From Saprospiraceae bacterium (lineage in GTDB: Bacteria > Bacteroidota > Bacteroidia > Chitinophagales > Saprospiraceae): a stretch of 37,757 bases of DNA. The notes below the pieces were generated by a model, which saw only the letters and a program-made list of their open reading frames with translations, made no database searches and was not told where the DNA came from. The stretch covers positions 1 to 37,757 of the forward strand of contig JADLDL010000223.1 of NCBI GenBank assembly GCA_020846655.1, in the 5' to 3' direction. Each line of letters starts with the position of its first letter. Position 1 is the first letter of the stretch. Made by a program: the position numbers and the translations under genes. Positions 30,140 to 37,752 of the stretch are shown piece after piece.

Positions 30140-33100
30140 ATGTCTGAACTAGCCTTAAAATTGATTGCTGAAAATAAAGCCAGGCATGCGCGAGGCTTGG
30201 ATGCACGGGCGCTGGACTTGAGGAATACTGGTCTTGAAAAACTTCCAGATGAGCTGTTTGATCTATTTTGGTTAGAGGTGCTCGACTTGGGCTACATTGA
30301 GGATGAAAAATCTTGGTGGATACAAGGAGATGAATGGTGGTATGATCCCGTCGGGATACCTAATGAAATCCAATATATTGATGAAAATATAAACAAGCTG
30401 AACAAACTGCAAATTATAGATTTTAGTAAAAACCCACTAAAAAATATAGATGCAGTATTGAATTTGCATGAATTAAAAAAAATTATTATCCATGATACTG
30501 AAATTCTCGATTTGGCTTTTTTAAAATCAATTAATAGTTTAATATACTTGGATGCAAAAAGGACGAAAATACAAGATGTGTCTCAGCTAAATGGAGCAAT
30601 CAATTTAAATTTCCTGAATATAGAATCTTCACTAATTTGTGACATAAAACCAATTGCAAATTTATTCAATTTGCAATGCCTTAATATATCTACAACTATA
30701 GTTCGCAACCTAAAACCATTAAGTAAATTAAAAAACTTAAAACAATTATATTTAAATGATTTGGGGAAGCAAAAAAAAGATGTTTATAGCGTATGGCAAA
30801 TAAACGATGGAGTAAAAAATATTAATCCATTAAGAAACTTGAAGAAGTTGGAGAGATTAGAAATCGATGGGGCTAAAAATTTGGACGACCTTTCTGCATT
30901 AAAAAATATGTATGAACTACAGCACTTGTCGTTTTCGGAAACTGCTGTGGCCGATCTTGGCCCGATATCTAGCCTCATTAAATTGGAATATCTATGTATG
31001 AAGAAAACCAGGGTAAAGAGATTAGATCCTGTATCTGAGTTAATAAACTTAAAAACACTAAAATTTTCAGAAACTGAAATTTTTGATCTATACCCTATTG
31101 AAAAAATAAATAAAATTAAAGAAATTGAGGCGCATACGACACGTGTTGAAGATCTGACCCCTTTAGAGCAAAAGCCTGATTTGCATTATGTGGATATTGC
31201 GATGACTAAGGTAAAAGATCTAAGTCCATTAAAAAATATAATAATTAATAATAAAATACCTGTTATTGATAAATACAATAGTTATTTATATGGGTATAAT
31301 GATGAACATACTAGGCTGGCCACCCACCAAATTTTTGTTGGAGGATGCCCGATTGAGGTGCCGCCGCCTGAGATGATTGGATATTCATATTTAATTGAGG
31401 CATACTTTGCCGAACGCTCCAAACAACAATTCAAAAATACCGAAATCAAACTATTTCTCCTTGGCAACGCCACTACCGGGAAAACGACCCTAAGCCGCTA
31501 CTTGCGAGAACAAATCTATGCCCTAGCCCAACCGACCACACACGGTATCCAAAACCATCGCTGGCAATCCCCAAACGGGCGCGAAATGGAGGTCAACATC
31601 TGGGATTTCGGCGGGCAGGAATATTACCACGCTACCCACCGCCTGTTTCTGAGCCGCAACGCCGTTTATGCCCTTGTTTGGGATGCAAAAACGGACAAAG
31701 GCGGCATCGAACCGACGGAAATCCACTACGAAAACGACCCACAGACATACATCGTACCATTGGAGCATTTTTCAAAAGCCTGGTGGCTGAAAAATATCCA
31801 TTTCAACCTCAGCAAATACCCCCGCCACGAACGCGAGGGCGACGCGCCTATTCCAGTGCTGCTCGTACAAAACAAGTGTGCCTCTGGAAAGGACTATCAG
31901 GAAGCCTCGGTTCCAAGAGAATTTGAACAAGAACCCTATTGGTTGAAACCTGCCTGGACCAAGCACCACCTTGACCTTGCCGCCGCAGCAAATGAACAAG
32001 CCAACGGCGTACAAGGCGAATGGACAATACGATTCAAACTCTTCGAAAACGAACTACTCAAAGCCCTTGAAAGCCGAATGGCGACCTACGAATTCGCCAT
32101 CTACCACCGGGATATCCGTGACCATGTGCGAGCCTTGGTCTCAGGGGAAACACCGCGCAACGAAATGTCCTGGACAGATTTCGAAGCGTTGTGCCTCGAC
32201 ATTGAGCCAGACGCAAAAATGGACCTGGTTCAGATCTACCTCCGTGACATCACCGGCGATATCCTCTATTTCGATCAAAACGAGCGACTGAAACATCGCG
32301 TTTTCCTGCGCCCGGACTGGGTTTGTAACCGCATTTATACTATTCTCAGTCGCAAAGTACTGGAATACCAAGGGCTGTTCGACTTGACTTGGGTGCGCGA
32401 AGCTCTCCAATGCGAGGAGCAGGAAGCCCTTGATTTTGTAGAATTAATGCGCGAATTCCACTTGGTTTTTGCTGAAAACGACGAAAATGGCGAGCCAACA
32501 GGCCACTACGTCGCACCGCAATATCTGCCCAATACCTGTACTAAACCTGACAAACTTGAGGCCGCGATCGAGTACGCCAATCTCACGCACGCCTTCACTC
32601 TTTGGTTCCCGGATTTTTTGCCCAAAAGCCATATCGCCCGATTCGTGGCATACTGGGGCGGCAAAGCTAAACAACGGCTTTTCTGGAAAAACGGTTTGCT
32701 CTTTCAAACGGAGGGCTGCACCATTTTGGTTGAACGGCTGACAGAGGAGGACAAAATTCAAGTCGAAATCCAGACAAACAACCGAGCAAAACGAGAAGCC
32801 GCGATACGCCGTATTTTTCAGTCTTTTTTGGATTTAGAGGATGGACAAGGCTTTTGGAATAAGGAAGAAAATGAGCCTTGGGAACTTCCGAATGGCGAAG
32901 GCTTTTGGCAGTTCGGTGACAATGCGAAATTCGCTGTATCAACAGATGGGAGTAACTATGCCCTCTGGAGTGAAATTTATTATTCTTGGTGTGCAAAAGC
33001 AACAAGGCTTAAATCCTATCCTCTCGAAACGTCAAAGTTTATTGATATTCAACCATTTTCTATTTTTTATAAACCTATCATCATGGCCAAAAAGGTATTT

Positions 33101-33520
33101 ATTTCCTATTCGCACAAAGACGAATCCTTTAAGGATGAATTAGACACCCACTTCTCAGCCCTTAAACGCAGCGGCCTTGTCGATGTTTGGCACGACCGAC
33201 GCATTGATGCGAGCACGGAGTGGGATGATGCCATTAAATCGGAGCTCGAGGCCGCCGACATTATTTTGCTATTAGTCAGTGCTAATTTTCTCGCCTCCGA
33301 ATACATCTGGAAAGTCGAAATTGCGCGTGCTATGGAGCGTCACCGGGCGAAAGAAGCCAAGGTAATCCCCATTTTTATCCGTTCCTGTGATGTAAAAGGT
33401 ATGCCTTTCGAGGGTATTCAAGGTTTGCCGCGCGATGCCAAACCTATTGCTTCCTTCACCGATAAAGATGAAGCCTACTTCCAGATTGCCAAAGGTATCC
33501 GGGCAATTCTGGAAAATTAG
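30140..33520 (+). CDS. LRR-Roc-COR GTPase fused to a C-terminal TIR domain
   Basis: 1126 residues. N-terminal segment with LDLRNTGLEKLPDELFDL, then about twelve 22-residue SDS22-like leucine-rich repeats (about 75-380). A Roc GTPase follows: P-loop GNATTGKTT (442-450), G3 DFGGQE (489-494), G4 NKCA in place of NKxD (578-581). Then COR (about 650-840, HRVFLRPDWVCNRIYTIL), a linker, and TIR (982-1126, MAKKVFISYSHKD, VWHDRRIDASTEWDD, and SANFLASEYIWKVE with a Glu at the NADase position). Roc-COR proteins are dimeric GTP switches; bacterial TIR domains cleave NAD when triggered. The repeat part is strongly AT-rich and uses AAA/ATA/TTA codons, unlike the GC-rich second half and neighbours, a sign of a composite gene. 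It leads the three-gene operon; the next start is 81 bases on. Confidence 0.88.
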   Translation: MSELALKLIAENKARHARGLDARALDLRNTGLEKLPDELFDLFWLEVLDLGYIEDEKSWWIQGDEWWYDPVGIPNEIQYIDENINKLNKLQIIDFSKNPLKNIDAVLNLHELKKIIIHDTEILDLAFLKSINSLIYLDAKRTKIQDVSQLNGAINLNFLNIESSLICDIKPIANLFNLQCLNISTTIVRNLKPLSKLKNLKQLYLNDLGKQKKDVYSVWQINDGVKNINPLRNLKKLERLEIDGAKNLDDLSALKNMYELQHLSFSETAVADLGPISSLIKLEYLCMKKTRVKRLDPVSELINLKTLKFSETEIFDLYPIEKINKIKEIEAHTTRVEDLTPLEQKPDLHYVDIAMTKVKDLSPLKNIIINNKIPVIDKYNSYLYGYNDEHTRLATHQIFVGGCPIEVPPPEMIGYSYLIEAYFAERSKQQFKNTEIKLFLLGNATTGKTTLSRYLREQIYALAQPTTHGIQNHRWQSPNGREMEVNIWDFGGQEYYHATHRLFLSRNAVYALVWDAKTDKGGIEPTEIHYENDPQTYIVPLEHFSKAWWLKNIHFNLSKYPRHEREGDAPIPVLLVQNKCASGKDYQEASVPREFEQEPYWLKPAWTKHHLDLAAAANEQANGVQGEWTIRFKLFENELLKALESRMATYEFAIYHRDIRDHVRALVSGETPRNEMSWTDFEALCLDIEPDAKMDLVQIYLRDITGDILYFDQNERLKHRVFLRPDWVCNRIYTILSRKVLEYQGLFDLTWVREALQCEEQEALDFVELMREFHLVFAENDENGEPTGHYVAPQYLPNTCTKPDKLEAAIEYANLTHAFTLWFPDFLPKSHIARFVAYWGGKAKQRLFWKNGLLFQTEGCTILVERLTEEDKIQVEIQTNNRAKREAAIRRIFQSFLDLEDGQGFWNKEENEPWELPNGEGFWQFGDNAKFAVSTDGSNYALWSEIYYSWCAKATRLKSYPLETSKFIDIQPFSIFYKPIIMAKKVFISYSHKDESFKDELDTHFSALKRSGLVDVWHDRRIDASTEWDDAIKSELEAADIILLLVSANFLASEYIWKVEIARAMERHRAKEAKVIPIFIRSCDVKGMPFEGIQGLPRDAKPIASFTDKDEAYFQIAKGIRAILEN

Positions 33521-33601: not shown

Positions 33602-34978
33602 ATGCCCATGAATTGGAATGATCTCACTGATGCTATTCGGGCCGACGAATGCGTGCTGCTGCTCGGCCCCAACGCTGCCACATACGAGGGCGAAAGCCTG
33701 CGCGATCTGCTCGCCGAACGCATCTGTCGCCTGTTGCGACAGGGCCGGCCAGACGCAGTGGCAACGCCTGCGGATTTGGCCGCAGCCGTGCGCTTGTTCC
33801 TCAAGTCATTTCCCGACAATGGGCAGGCTTTCGACGCCCTGCGCCATGCACTTCGCGCTTTTTACGAGGAGTTTGCAGACGAAGCGATACCGGTGTACGA
33901 CGCCGTGGCAGCATTGCCTTTTAAATACATTATCAATACAGCGCCGGATGAACTGCTGCTAAACGCACTGAAACGTAAGGACAAAAAGGCCCGCTTCTTC
34001 GATTTCAATTTCGACAACCCTGACTACAACATCGCGCAAAACAACAATGCGCTTAACCTCGAAACGCAAATCGCCGAAGATGCTCCCTTGGTATTCAACC
34101 TGCTGGGGCACTACGAACGGCCCGACGCACTAGTGCTCACCGACGCCGCCCGGCTGCGTTTCCTCGAAGTGGTGCTTCAGCGCGAAAAAGAAGCCACCCT
34201 CCCAGCCAACATTGCCTTTTTCTTCAACAAACGCCCCGTGCGCCGCCACCGCAAGGCCTTTGTGTTCGTCGGCTTCGACTTCAACGAGTGGCACATGCGC
34301 TTGTTCCTGCACCTGCTGGGCAGCCGACACGGTCAGGTACTGCCGCATTCTATTTCTTTACAGGATACGACAGCACTACAAGGCGATGCACAAACATTTT
34401 TTACCGAAAATTTCAACATGCACTTCGTAGGGGCGGATGCTTCCGGTTTCCTGACGCAACTGAAACAGGAACTCCAAAAACCTGTTGTGGCCGCACCCGC
34501 AACCCGTCGCGAACTGCTGTTGCTGTATCACCCCGACGACGAAGCGTTGCGCATAGAACTGGAAACCTACCTTGCCCCCCTACGCCAGAGCCATCTCGTT
34601 GAGGTATGGCACGAGGCCAGGATCAAAGCCGGCGAAATGGTGGAAGACACACTCCGCGAACATCTCCAACACGCCTGGTTGATTGTGCCGTTGGTGACCG
34701 CCAGGTTCATTGCCAACGACCGTTTCTTCACCGAAACCCTGCCTGCTGTATTGGACCGCCACAAAGCCGGCAGCACCAAAGTGGCGCCCATCCTGATGAC
34801 GCCTTGCGACGTGGAAAACACCCCCCTGTTCGACCTGCTGACACTCCAGCCCAAGCCCCGAGGCAAGGCGCTGAGCCAAAAGTCCGACCGTGCCCAGGCG
34901 CTCAAGACTATCGTCAGCGACCTGCGCAGTATGCTGGAAAATATGAATAGCAAATCCTCCCAAAGCGCAAGCATATGA
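33602..34978 (+). CDS. SIR2-like domain fused to a TIR-like domain
   Basis: 458 residues; ATG 33608 is an alternative start. Residues 1-285 read as a SIR2-like (SIR2_2/SLOG) fold: CVLLLGPNA for the first Rossmann loop, KYIINTAPDELLLNAL where active SIR2 has TTNYD, VFNLLGHYERPDALVLTD where it has LHG, and AFVFVGFDFNEW near the end. The key Asn appears replaced by Ala and the His shifted, so NADase activity of this half is doubtful. Residues about 302-445 are TIR-like (LLLLYHPDDEALRIELE, VEVWHEARIKAGE, FIANDRFFTETLPAVLDRH, KVAPILMTPCDVENTPL). The Glu near FFTET is one position off from the TIR in the upstream gene. Its last bases overlap the next start (ATGA), so it is coupled to the STAND gene. 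The SIR2 call is moderate. Confidence 0.68.
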   Translation: MPMNWNDLTDAIRADECVLLLGPNAATYEGESLRDLLAERICRLLRQGRPDAVATPADLAAAVRLFLKSFPDNGQAFDALRHALRAFYEEFADEAIPVYDAVAALPFKYIINTAPDELLLNALKRKDKKARFFDFNFDNPDYNIAQNNNALNLETQIAEDAPLVFNLLGHYERPDALVLTDAARLRFLEVVLQREKEATLPANIAFFFNKRPVRRHRKAFVFVGFDFNEWHMRLFLHLLGSRHGQVLPHSISLQDTTALQGDAQTFFTENFNMHFVGADASGFLTQLKQELQKPVVAAPATRRELLLLYHPDDEALRIELETYLAPLRQSHLVEVWHEARIKAGEMVEDTLREHLQHAWLIVPLVTARFIANDRFFTETLPAVLDRHKAGSTKVAPILMTPCDVENTPLFDLLTLQPKPRGKALSQKSDRAQALKTIVSDLRSMLENMNSKSSQSASI

Positions 34979-37659
34979 AACACCGCTATCCCGGCATCCA
35001 TTCTTTTACTGCCGATGAGCAGGCGCTCTTTTTCGGCCGCGAGCGCGAAAAAAAGGAGCTCTTTCGCCTCATTGTCCTGAATGAAATAGTGGTGCTGTTT
35101 GGCAAATCTGGCACCGGCAAAACATCCCTCTTGCAAGCCGGCGTAGGTCCCCTGCTGACCGAACGACATCTGCAACCCGTCAAGGTTCGGCTCAACAATA
35201 CCCAACAACCGATCAGCCGCCAGATATTCGAACAACTCAACGACGGCGATTACCTGCCCCTGAATACACCCGATGATCTCAGCCTCTGGGAGTATTGCAA
35301 ACGCTTCGAATACGCCCCGGGCGGTGACGCCTTCGCGCCAGTGCTCCTGCTCGACCAGTTTGAGGAACTTTTCACCCTCTACCACGATCAACCCGAAGCA
35401 CAGCAGGATTTCATTAGCCAGCTCGCCGCAGTGCTCAACCACAAAATACCCGCCCGTGTTCAGGAAGCAGCCCAAGCCATTGCCGGCGAAGCCGAACGCG
35501 CCCAATGGCTGGCTCCGCCGCAAGTGAACATCGTCATTTCCATCCGCTCCGATTTCCTGTACCTGCTCGACCGGCTTTCTGCCCGCATACCCTCCATTCT
35601 GCGCTGCCGCTACGAACTGCCGGCGCTCGACGAAGCCAATACCCGCTTGGCCATCACCCGCCCACCGGCCTTGGGTGGGCCTTTTGCCTCACCGGTTTTT
35701 TCGTACAGTGAGGCCGCCTTGCAGGAAATGGTAGACAGCCTGGTCACGATCGATGCGGACAACGACGCCATCACCCCCGGCGCCGTGCGCGAGGTGGAAC
35801 CGTTTCAGGCGCAATTGCTGTGCCAGCATATTGAGCAGAAGATCATCGCTGAGCAACGCCCCGACGGGTTTGTCGTGACGCCGGACTTTTACGCCGGACG
35901 CGGCGGTATCCAGGACATCCGCAAGCAGTACTATGATGGCGTTCTGGCCCGTTTCGACGCCCACACCCGTCCCCGCGTGGAACGCCTGCTGGGCGAATTC
36001 CTGCTCAGCAACGACCGGCGCATCATCCAGGAGCGCGACTACCTGCTGGAAAAATGCACCCTCAGGGAGCAAGACCTCGCCTTGCTTTGTACCGAGCGCC
36101 TGTTGAGGGAAGAGCCTCGTGGCGGTAGTTATTACTACGAAATCAGCCACGATACCCTGGTAGCGCCGATCACGGCGGCGCGGGAGGAAAGGCGGCAGGC
36201 GGAAGAGGCCGAGCGCCTGGAACAGGAGCGCACCGAAGCCGAGCACCGCGCCAAAGAAGCCGAGGAAAAAGCCGCTGAAGACCGGCGCCGGGCGGAGGAG
36301 GCTGAGCGCTTGAGGCTGGAGGCTGAACGCCAGCGGACAATTGCTCAACAGGCCACTATAGACGCCGAAAAGGAACGGGACAAAGCCCAAACCGCCCTGG
36401 CCCATCTGGAAACGGCGCTTGCCGAGATCCGCGTAAAAAACCTGTCAACGTTCGAAAGTTTTGCGGGCCTGGGCGCCGACCTTATGTATTCGCTGAACTA
36501 TCCCGAAGCCCTGGCGAAAATGAAAGTGGCAGCCGATATAGAGGTGGATGCCGGCCTCAAGCAGCAGCAATTGACAGAACCCATTGCCGAACTTTTGTAT
36601 TTTTTTGCCGAAAGCGGCCGCCGGCTGGATTTAGCCCGTACGGCAGCCGAACTGTTATTGCAAGTAAACCCTGATCCAGTAATAGTGCCCCTTTTACAGC
36701 AATGCCGGCAGGAAAACTGGAACGCAAGGGACCAGTTTGCTCCCTTACTCAAAACACTGCCTTTCTACCATACACTTCAGGCGCGCTACTACCCGGAATG
36801 GTGTGCCGTCCCCTTGGGCGCCGATGGTACCTTCGATATGGGTAGCGAGTCGTCAGAGCAGGGACATCAGTCGGATGAGCAACTGCACCAGGTAAAACTC
36901 TCCCCCTACCAGATGGCTGCTACACCGGTTACCTTTTATCAGTTTGCGTTGTACAGCGAAGCGGTCGACCGGGGCCTGGCGAGCCGTACGCCGTACTGGG
37001 GCCTCTTCGGAGACCACCCGGCAGTAAACGTCAACTGGTACGAAACAGCAGAATATGCCAATTGGCTCAATGCGCAAGTGGGCCTTCCACCTGCCTACCG
37101 GATACAAAAAGAAGTCAATAGCGATGTTGGCAACCAGGTGCAGAATGACTTCTTGAAATGGAAAGTGGATTGGAACAACCAAGTCAGCGGCTATCGTCTA
37201 CCCACTGAAGCGGAGTGGGAACTGGCTGCCAGGGCCGGTGTGGGGGCGCCGAGAACCCAGTTTGCCGGGAGCGACATCTTAGATGCTGTAGGCTGGTATT
37301 GGGAAAACTCCGGCGACAAACCACTCTCTGGCGATTGGGACCTGAATCGAATTTATGACAACAATGGAAGAACTCATCCTGTGAAACAAAAAAAAGAGAA
37401 CGGCATCGGTCTGTATGACATGAGCGGTAACGTTTGGGAATGGTGTTGGGACTGGTATGACGCTGAGTTTTATAATGAATGCCAAAAACAGGGCATAGAG
37501 CAACACCCGGCTGGTGCAAAAAGCAGCGCCGCCGGCCGCGTTGTCCGCGGCGGGAGTTGGTACTACTACCCCGAGTATTGCCGGGTGGCGTTCCGCAACG
37601 GGGGCGGCCCCGACTACCGCAACTTCAACATAGGCTTCCGCCTGGTGTTCGTCCCGTAG
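34975..37659 (+). CDS. STAND-type NTPase with coiled coil and FGE-like C-terminal sensor domain (DGR target candidate)
   Basis: 894 residues. N-terminal STAND/nSTAND1-like NTPase: FFGREREKKELFRL, Walker A GKSGTGKT (43-50), Walker B VLLLDQFEELF (about 123-133) and sensor-like NIVISIRSDFLYLLDRLS. A winged-helix-like end carries YYEISHDTLV. Residues about 401-488 are a charged, Ala/Glu/Arg-rich coiled coil. About 489-600 are helical, TPR-like. About 604-894 are an FGE-like (formylglycine-generating enzyme/SUMF1, C-type lectin fold) domain with GYRLPTEAEWELAARAG (739-755), YDMSGNVWEWCWDWY (about 814-828) and GRVVRGGSW (854-862). The paired Cys of active FGE are not in place, so it is probably a binding domain. 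The layout resembles the TvpA-type variable proteins of DGRs, and the C-terminus shows the matching pattern (see variable region). Confidence 0.85.
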   Translation: MKHRYPGIHSFTADEQALFFGREREKKELFRLIVLNEIVVLFGKSGTGKTSLLQAGVGPLLTERHLQPVKVRLNNTQQPISRQIFEQLNDGDYLPLNTPDDLSLWEYCKRFEYAPGGDAFAPVLLLDQFEELFTLYHDQPEAQQDFISQLAAVLNHKIPARVQEAAQAIAGEAERAQWLAPPQVNIVISIRSDFLYLLDRLSARIPSILRCRYELPALDEANTRLAITRPPALGGPFASPVFSYSEAALQEMVDSLVTIDADNDAITPGAVREVEPFQAQLLCQHIEQKIIAEQRPDGFVVTPDFYAGRGGIQDIRKQYYDGVLARFDAHTRPRVERLLGEFLLSNDRRIIQERDYLLEKCTLREQDLALLCTERLLREEPRGGSYYYEISHDTLVAPITAAREERRQAEEAERLEQERTEAEHRAKEAEEKAAEDRRRAEEAERLRLEAERQRTIAQQATIDAEKERDKAQTALAHLETALAEIRVKNLSTFESFAGLGADLMYSLNYPEALAKMKVAADIEVDAGLKQQQLTEPIAELLYFFAESGRRLDLARTAAELLLQVNPDPVIVPLLQQCRQENWNARDQFAPLLKTLPFYHTLQARYYPEWCAVPLGADGTFDMGSESSEQGHQSDEQLHQVKLSPYQMAATPVTFYQFALYSEAVDRGLASRTPYWGLFGDHPAVNVNWYETAEYANWLNAQVGLPPAYRIQKEVNSDVGNQVQNDFLKWKVDWNNQVSGYRLPTEAEWELAARAGVGAPRTQFAGSDILDAVGWYWENSGDKPLSGDWDLNRIYDNNGRTHPVKQKKENGIGLYDMSGNVWEWCWDWYDAEFYNECQKQGIEQHPAGAKSSAAGRVVRGGSWYYYPEYCRVAFRNGGGPDYRNFNIGFRLVFVP
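37534..37656 (+). other. Candidate DGR variable region (VR) of the STAND-FGE gene
   Basis: Codons 854-894. The conserved frame (GRVVRGGSW, CR, R, PD, R, N, GFRL) matches FGE-type DGR targets, whose template-encoded sequence carries many Asn (AAC/AAT) codons. Here those sites are TAC TAC TAC (863-865), TAT (868), TTC (873), AAC GGG GGC GGC (875-878), TAC (881) and AAC TTC AAC (883-885). All except GGG (876) can come from AAY by changes at the adenines only. The last codons are GC-rich, as in an IMH element. Proof would need a template repeat, which is not in the window. Confidence 0.65.
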
Positions 37660-37709
37660 TCAGTTGCAGACCATACCGGCTTTACGTATGAGCACAGCGC
37701 GTGGCAAGG

Positions 37710-37752
37710 CCCATGCGAGACGGGGGGAGGGACGAGCCCCGGCCCGCATGGG
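37710..37752. other. Strong hairpin downstream of the variable region
   Basis: Arms 37710-37725 (cccatgcgagacgggg) and 37737-37752 (ccccggcccgcatggg) pair at 14 of 16 positions around an 11-base loop. It starts 50 bases after the stop codon. DGR targets often need a hairpin just 3' of the VR for efficient homing. A plain terminator is less likely because no T tract follows before the window ends. Confidence 0.55.

Follow-up and report, generated by a model that had tools for sequence, protein, structure and literature searches.

A diversity-generating retroelement variable repeat at the end of a Saprospiraceae nSTAND1-FGE gene, and covarying template-flank/target-flank complementarity in its HRDC-type relatives

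In diversity-generating retroelements (DGRs), an error-prone reverse transcriptase (RT) copies the RNA of a template repeat (TR), adenines are randomised, and the resulting cDNA replaces a variable repeat (VR). TvpA of Treponema denticola is an FGE-like variable protein. Its DGR carries an accessory gene of ~480 bp that overlaps the RT gene, and the accessible text on it describes only IMH-like ends (PMC4891356). The BPP-1 DGR has an IMH and, after its VR, a hairpin or cruciform, which according to the available portion of the source is needed for efficient homing (PMC3240598). The DGRs described here likewise have a cis element after the VR, beyond the TR/VR homology. The BPP-1 hairpin, however, is intramolecular and its stem sequence is variable (PMC3240598), whereas the 11-nt site described below matches the flank of the TR. 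HRDC is named as a DGR accessory in the parts of two sources that we could access (PMC3240598, PMC10053308), and such DGRs have their counterpart here in the VR-HRDC-RT-TR cassette of the locus L085 and its relatives; an address code for them was not found in the same parts.

The closest described targets are those of Thiohalocapsa PB-PSB1, as far as the consulted text of PMC10907252 goes. Its DGRs 3 and 6 have, like the locus studied here, a STAND NTPase target with a C-terminal CLec VR, and the target of DGR 6 is an nSTAND1 protein with FGE, again as here. The neighbours of these DGRs are of conflict type, to which a SIR2-TIR gene corresponds in our case. The main text of that paper mentions HRDC 0 times, the term 'inverted repeat' refers there to MITE-like and IS repeats, and complementarity between TR and VR flanks was not found in the consulted text. 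In the DGR literature outside most subscription papers and preprints, as far as its text was available, post-VR hairpins and IMH elements are described, but complementarity of a TR flank with a VR flank was not found; an earlier description may possibly exist elsewhere.

The window, by which we mean the whole stretch of 37,757 nucleotides that was analysed, is the entire contig C223 of a 6.4-Mb Saprospiraceae assembly (398 contigs, 96.7% complete). Its features are listed in Table 1. The target protein is recognised by Pfam with E-values of 6e-32 for nSTAND1 and 5e-46 for FGE-sulfatase, and the VR is placed at the 3' end of this FGE-fold gene, where the FGE-sulfatase match covers residues 617-891 of 894. 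A SIR2-domain gene precedes both this gene and a second VR gene of the same genome on contig C180; it has an additional TIR domain at the window and an additional EAD11 at C180. These neighbours are in line with the DGR-diversified conflict systems in the available text of PMC10907252, and conflict systems with EADs are known (PMC7159879, accessible part).

Table 1. Features at the right end of the window (positions in the window; TR, template repeat; VR, variable repeat)
Feature	Position	Strand	Basis
LRR-Roc-COR-TIR gene, upstream of target gene	30140..33520	+	
SIR2-like/TIR (ThsB-like) gene, overlaps target-gene start	33602..34978	+	Pfam SIR2_2; PADLOC ThsB E 6e-25
nSTAND1-FGE target gene, 894 aa	34975..37659	+	Pfam nSTAND1 residues 5-427, FGE-sulfatase 617-891
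VR core, TAG stop codon at its end	37537..37659	+	Differences from L085 TR at 14/30 A and 3/93 non-A positions
Stretch with 13 template AAC/AGG codons	37561..37632	+	Codon table vs L085 TR
Post-VR flank, homologous to TR-complementary element of HRDC-type DGRs	37660..37693	+	Flank alignments
Candidate address arm of 11 nt, TTACGTATGAG; predicted TR partner CTCATACGTAA	37682..37692	+	Homology with 14 cognate 11/11 pairs
Second post-VR element GAGGGACGA, at +67	37727..37735	+	GAGGGAC recurrence in VR flanks

Changes were counted against the TR of L085, a sister DGR from a Saprospiraceae MAG, in place of a TR of the window genome itself. Against this TR, the window tail is changed at 14/30 template adenines and at 3/93 other positions (Fisher p=6.6e-8), and C180 at 19/30 and 2/93, respectively. 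The two copies differ from each other at 19/123 sites, 18 of which are A in the L085 TR. This adenine bias against an orthologous TR supports the tail of the window gene as the VR of a DGR. A sequence-only reading had proposed an adenine-type hypervariable C-terminus and a DGR target; the first is confirmed and the second is supported, also by the related VR on C180 and the common post-VR elements. Within the variable stretch, AAC stands at 12 codons of the L085 template and AGG at one, and the window residues at these 13 template codons are Y,Y,Y,Y,F,N,G,G,G,Y,N,F,N. Two details of the reading have to be corrected: GGG at codon 876, regarded as an exception, is A-derived, as the template has AGG there, and codon 868, given as TAC, is TAT (37576-37578). 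The third base of the latter is the sole non-A change private to the window copy. The remaining two non-A differences (37572, 37632) are common to the window and C180 and therefore probably reflect the window genome's own TR.

The DGR had been expected just beyond the right edge. The contig stops 98 bp after the stop codon, and that placement is unproven; from the sister order VR gene-HRDC-RT-TR, a cassette to the right of the window is plausible, and the window VR or the C180 VR could also be a remote target. Searches of the assembly (96.7% complete) with the VR DNA, the VR protein and the address 18-mer described below brought up no TR with the skeleton of the window, and the L085 RT gave 0 matches there, while as a query against 395 genomes sampled from the phylum it matches 98, many of them weakly. 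The search for a DGR RT and a matching TR that the sequence-only reading had suggested thus found neither in this assembly, which is incomplete; the absence concerns the assembly, and absence from the organism does not follow. An HRDC search of the assembly yielded an HRDC-TR pair on C113 only, with a TR skeleton differing from that of the window. The C113 TR lies directly behind the HRDC gene with no RT between (L037:7483-8116), and in view of the sister order HRDC-RT-TR its RT looks deleted or misassembled. Two C113 VRs are identical to the C113 TR at all 85 non-A positions compared. The assembly also encodes two RVT_1 proteins, which were rejected as DGR RTs because PADLOC matches them best to models of retron types XIII and XI. 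The type XIII-like retron RT lies on C134 (L030:5586-7178) and the type XI-like one on C205 (L010:178-1182), near ORFs that by eye read as cas2- and cas1-like.

These results bear on the alternative that the window VR is a relic, with DGR machinery lost from the genome and an A-pattern that is old. We regard it as rather unlikely. The VR-protein search of the assembly gave 17 tail-like matches, one of them the C113 TR, and a DGR RT was not found in spite of them; moreover, the C113 DGR retains HRDC and TR with no RT between. Against a relic, just one non-A change is private to the window copy, and 7/17 tail-like matches lie <800 bp from a contig end, which makes assembly breakage at these repeats likely and suggests that assemblies may break at DGR targets. 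A DGR left unassembled and one that was lost are both compatible with the assembly.

Relatives were collected from public genome contigs with a 33-bp string that covers the end of the VR and continues behind the stop codon. It occurs in 23 stretches, some of them on one contig: 19 from Chlorobiaceae/Chlorobium, 2 from Saprospiraceae, 1 from Acidobacteria and 1 from candidate division KSB1. No match was found in the viral contigs scanned for the VR 5' string. The Saprospiraceae MAG locus L085 holds a complete cassette in the order VR gene-HRDC-RT-TR (HRDC E 6e-15, RVT_1 E 4e-12). Its VR gene encodes a STAND-FGE protein of 950 aa with the same VR skeleton as the window, its TR is rich in AAC codons, and its RT is of DGR type, with IGNLTSQ ... 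YMDD (the GxxxSQ and YMDD motifs) and an HRDC gene and a TR nearby.

In L085, the TR is followed by the reverse complement of what follows the VR. We examined this relation in 38 loci, made up of 20 same-genus regions, C113, C180 and 16 of the 23 stretches with the 33-bp string. TRs were sought with a regular expression, which missed the RT-bearing regions L157, L166 and L170, together with matching at non-A positions; 26 were recognised, of which 4 without a usable VR were left unscored and 22 had a VR in the same locus. When the 40 nt immediately behind the TR are reverse-complemented and aligned to the 50 nt that follow the cognate VR, 20/22 TR/VR pairs show the inverted flank, and the mean alignment score over all 22 pairs is 17.5 for cognate flanks, 9.3 for non-cognate flanks and 6.4 for shuffles. 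The two misses, L152 (another RT class) and L163 (a diverged 'VR' on the other strand), are excluded from the duplex-energy, z-score and HRDC/RT counts. All 20 remaining pairs reach z>4, as do 14/14 after near-identical (90%) flanks are dropped; phmmer finds HRDC in 18/20 of these loci and a related RT in 18/20. The RNA duplex energy is -43.2 kcal/mol for cognate and -27.7 kcal/mol for non-cognate flanks. When whole flanks are ranked by duplex energy, the cognate VR comes out on top in 11/20 only, because several DGRs have near-identical flanks.

The relation is sharpest directly after the TR. The first 11 nt there (the arm) are exactly complementary, in reverse orientation, to a site that begins 21-24 nt past the end of the cognate VR, with 154/154 Watson-Crick cells over 14 distinct arms, 13 from the locus table and one from a phylum-wide sample. 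At least three pair types occur at 10/11 arm positions, and nearly every position has changed repeatedly on both sides. When VR flanks were reassigned among DGRs and the best position rechosen, the mean was 111 and the maximum 133, and 0/2000 permutations were as high as 154; this permutation ignores kinship, and as the sequences are related it is not a phylogenetic test. The genome G061 adds a fifteenth pair, with an arm of 11/11, and G009 carries three different arms. The TR arm begins exactly at the end of the TR/VR homology. In related HRDC-type DGRs, the complementarity between TR flank and VR flank thus covaries at the level of sequence.

The arm predicted for the window matches 10/11 positions of the G018 arm CTCATAAGTAA, which is also the arm of L085. 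The 18-mer CCGGCTTTACGTATGAGC (37676-37693) is present in the window and in C180, and elsewhere in the assembly it is approached only with at least 3 mismatches. Since the 11-nt arm is identical in the window and C180, one TR would serve both genes, and both are predicted targets of a single TR whose flank begins CTCATACGTAA. By homology, the window's own TR may follow the same address rule.

Beyond the arm, the two flanks differ in their anatomy. The TR flank is ordered as arm (11-12 nt), mini-stem, about 8 nt, and then CTGAACAG or similar, the mini-stem being GCC-GGAY-GGC or GTC-GGAY-GAC in 12/14. The VR flank has T at +1 in 25/25 rows (L331, outside these rows, has A), followed by a weakly cognate proximal part and finally the arm partner. 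Self-folding of the TR flank is possible, and TR and VR flanks both form weak stem-loops. Part of the inverted similarity, in the proximal half, may therefore follow from a hairpin. This half is weakly cognate (6.0 vs 4.6, 0/5000 permutations), and without gaps the VR fits it no better than the TR does (5.4 vs 6.1); the idea of a proximal half paired equally with the arm is weakened by both values. The fold of the TR flank does not explain the exact 11-nt match, since the L160 TR flank is without the usual stem and yet has an arm of 11/11. Targets of the BPP-1 type carry a short, GC-rich hairpin with a 4-nt loop directly behind the VR. A hairpin of this kind, sought as a stem of at least 7 bp with a 3-6 nt loop, was absent from the first 55 nt of the VR flanks of 20 relatives, in a scan that is itself positive in only 10/40 BPP-1-like flanks. 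At +38, the post-VR flank of the window contains a 7-bp stem that includes GU and closes a 6-nt loop.

A phylum-wide sample of 30 RT loci included 17 with an HRDC match and readable TR and VR. The flank relation is clear in 14/17 of these, in 10 by score (z 7.6 to 13.8) and in 4 by reading, namely L346 (z -1.1), L347 (z 3.2) and the unscored L329 and L333. The automatic z of L346 and L347 is low because the homology call overran the junction. L344 and L345 have a partial relation (z 3.2 and 3.9), and in L351, also an HRDC locus, the relation was not found. Among pairs from loci without an HRDC match in the same sample, 0/5 are positive, with z at most 1.5.

Arms of known TRs were also compared with 48 tail-like rows, some of them repeated through locus overlap. 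Ten rows match a TR arm of their own genome, all at 11/11; they comprise 7 cassettes already counted, the G061 pair and two new remote VRs. One of the latter (L365, in G033) shares a contig with its TR at a distance of ~34 kb, and the other (L370, in G025) lies on another contig than its TR. The other 38 rows, including the window and C180, have no known own-genome TR arm at a match of at least 10/11, and many of them have a different, T-rich flank. The arm of another genome is matched at 10/11 or better by 11/48 rows, three at 11 and eight at 10; in the three at 11/11, the other genome's arm is the same string.

Outside the HRDC clade, the pattern largely disappears. After removal of 90% near-identical flanks, z>4 is reached by 0/40 viral BPP-1-type DGRs and by 1/45 other viral DGRs (L240, A+T-rich). 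In BPP-1 itself (L171, 2741-3442), nt 2-56 of the spacer can pair with VR 118 to about +46, with a duplex energy of -57.0 vs a shuffle mean of -37.7 (0/300) and -42.0 for a reverse-complement control. Across BPP-1-like viral DGRs the cognate preference is -1.4 kcal/mol (s.e. 0.6, 24/36). Generality beyond the HRDC clade was therefore mostly rejected, as relatives of BPP-1 show little cognate preference. At the spacer-IMH junction of BPP-1-like DGRs, the VR fits better than the TR in 18/36, equally in 18/36 and never worse, a match that is only a lead.

We consider it probable that the window tail is the VR of an HRDC-type DGR, with TR and RT missing from the assembly, whose target choice would proceed via address pairing after the TR. 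For the wider clade we lean, with less assurance, towards a programmable RNA address, in which the first 11-12 nt of the 3' flank of the template RNA, directly after the TR, would pair with the site 21-24 nt beyond each VR. From the flank comparisons we infer the pairing, its being with target DNA, and its guiding of homing. Through such arm pairing, the RNA-linked cDNA could be placed on the correct strand of the target, where the VR ends. The cDNA of BPP-1 is primed by an adenine of the spacer behind the TR and is left attached to the RNA, and the entry of mutated cDNA into the target is incompletely understood, according to the accessible part of PMC12875486. If HRDC-type DGRs prime just beyond the arm region, the RNA arm and the cDNA would be complementary to the same target strand, and the arm would fix the downstream side of the target. 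This priming model fits an address site directly beyond the TR/VR homology, and it would put a branch near the CTGAACAG motif.

If the address is true, different arms would let several DGRs coexist in one genome without cross-talk, and remote genes could be enlisted by gaining an 11-nt site. The covarying, exact 11-bp match would give the question of cDNA entry a handle that can be tested by mutation, and it would offer a computational assignment of remote VRs to their TR. In the present organism, two immune-type STAND-FGE sensor genes would be linked to one missing template.

Much of the same sequence pattern is also predicted by the ends of a mobile cassette or by pairing with target mRNA. 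In the first case, which we think improbable, the complementary flanks would be terminal inverted repeats of a cassette recognised by a recombinase, and not a pairing address. In the VR-HRDC-RT-TR order, the two copies do bracket HRDC-RT-TR as inverted repeats, the two ends of an element would be alike and distinct from those of other elements, and the 33-bp VR end in MAGs of Chlorobiaceae, Saprospiraceae, Acidobacteria and KSB1 suggests horizontal movement. However, no recombinase ORF was seen on reading the L085 cassette, and the remote VRs L365 and L370 bear the same arm at a distance from the cassette. The window arm, too, recurs at C180, where no RT was seen in 12 kb. In addition, the copies are asymmetric, with extra bases in the VR copy relative to the reversed TR flank in 20/20 alignments.

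In the second case, the TR RNA would also act as an antisense RNA: by pairing with the target mRNA in its 3' UTR, it would control expression of the target, not homing. The complementary strand is indeed the sense strand of the mRNA, close behind the stop codon, and the weak stem-loops in the TR and VR flanks resemble those of complementary antisense pairs. An arm that starts exactly where the TR/VR homology ends is predicted by homing, but is unneeded for regulation, and we doubt that regulation is the function of the flanks. Ordinary divergence of FGE paralogues in the absence of a DGR, a thought prompted by the abundance of FGE-like tails in the window genome, has practically no weight beside the 18/19 window-C180 differences that fall on adenines of the L085 TR and the p=6.6e-8 against that TR.

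Two further features of the VR flanks were recorded next to the candidate address. GAGGGAC occurs at most 170 nt downstream in 33/44 VR flanks, many of them close relatives, usually at +67 to +76, and in 0/44 of the upstream 300-nt stretches. Many VRs are followed at ~70 nt by an element like GAGGGACGA, which in some of them (e.g. L070, L074, L081) falls within a hairpin loop. A second class of VR flank has a T-rich stretch like CTTTTACCCTTTTACC and is represented by L152, L351, L359 (plasmid pPAES01), L019, L364, L368 and L372; pPAES01 carries HRDC and Avd along with two FGE genes.
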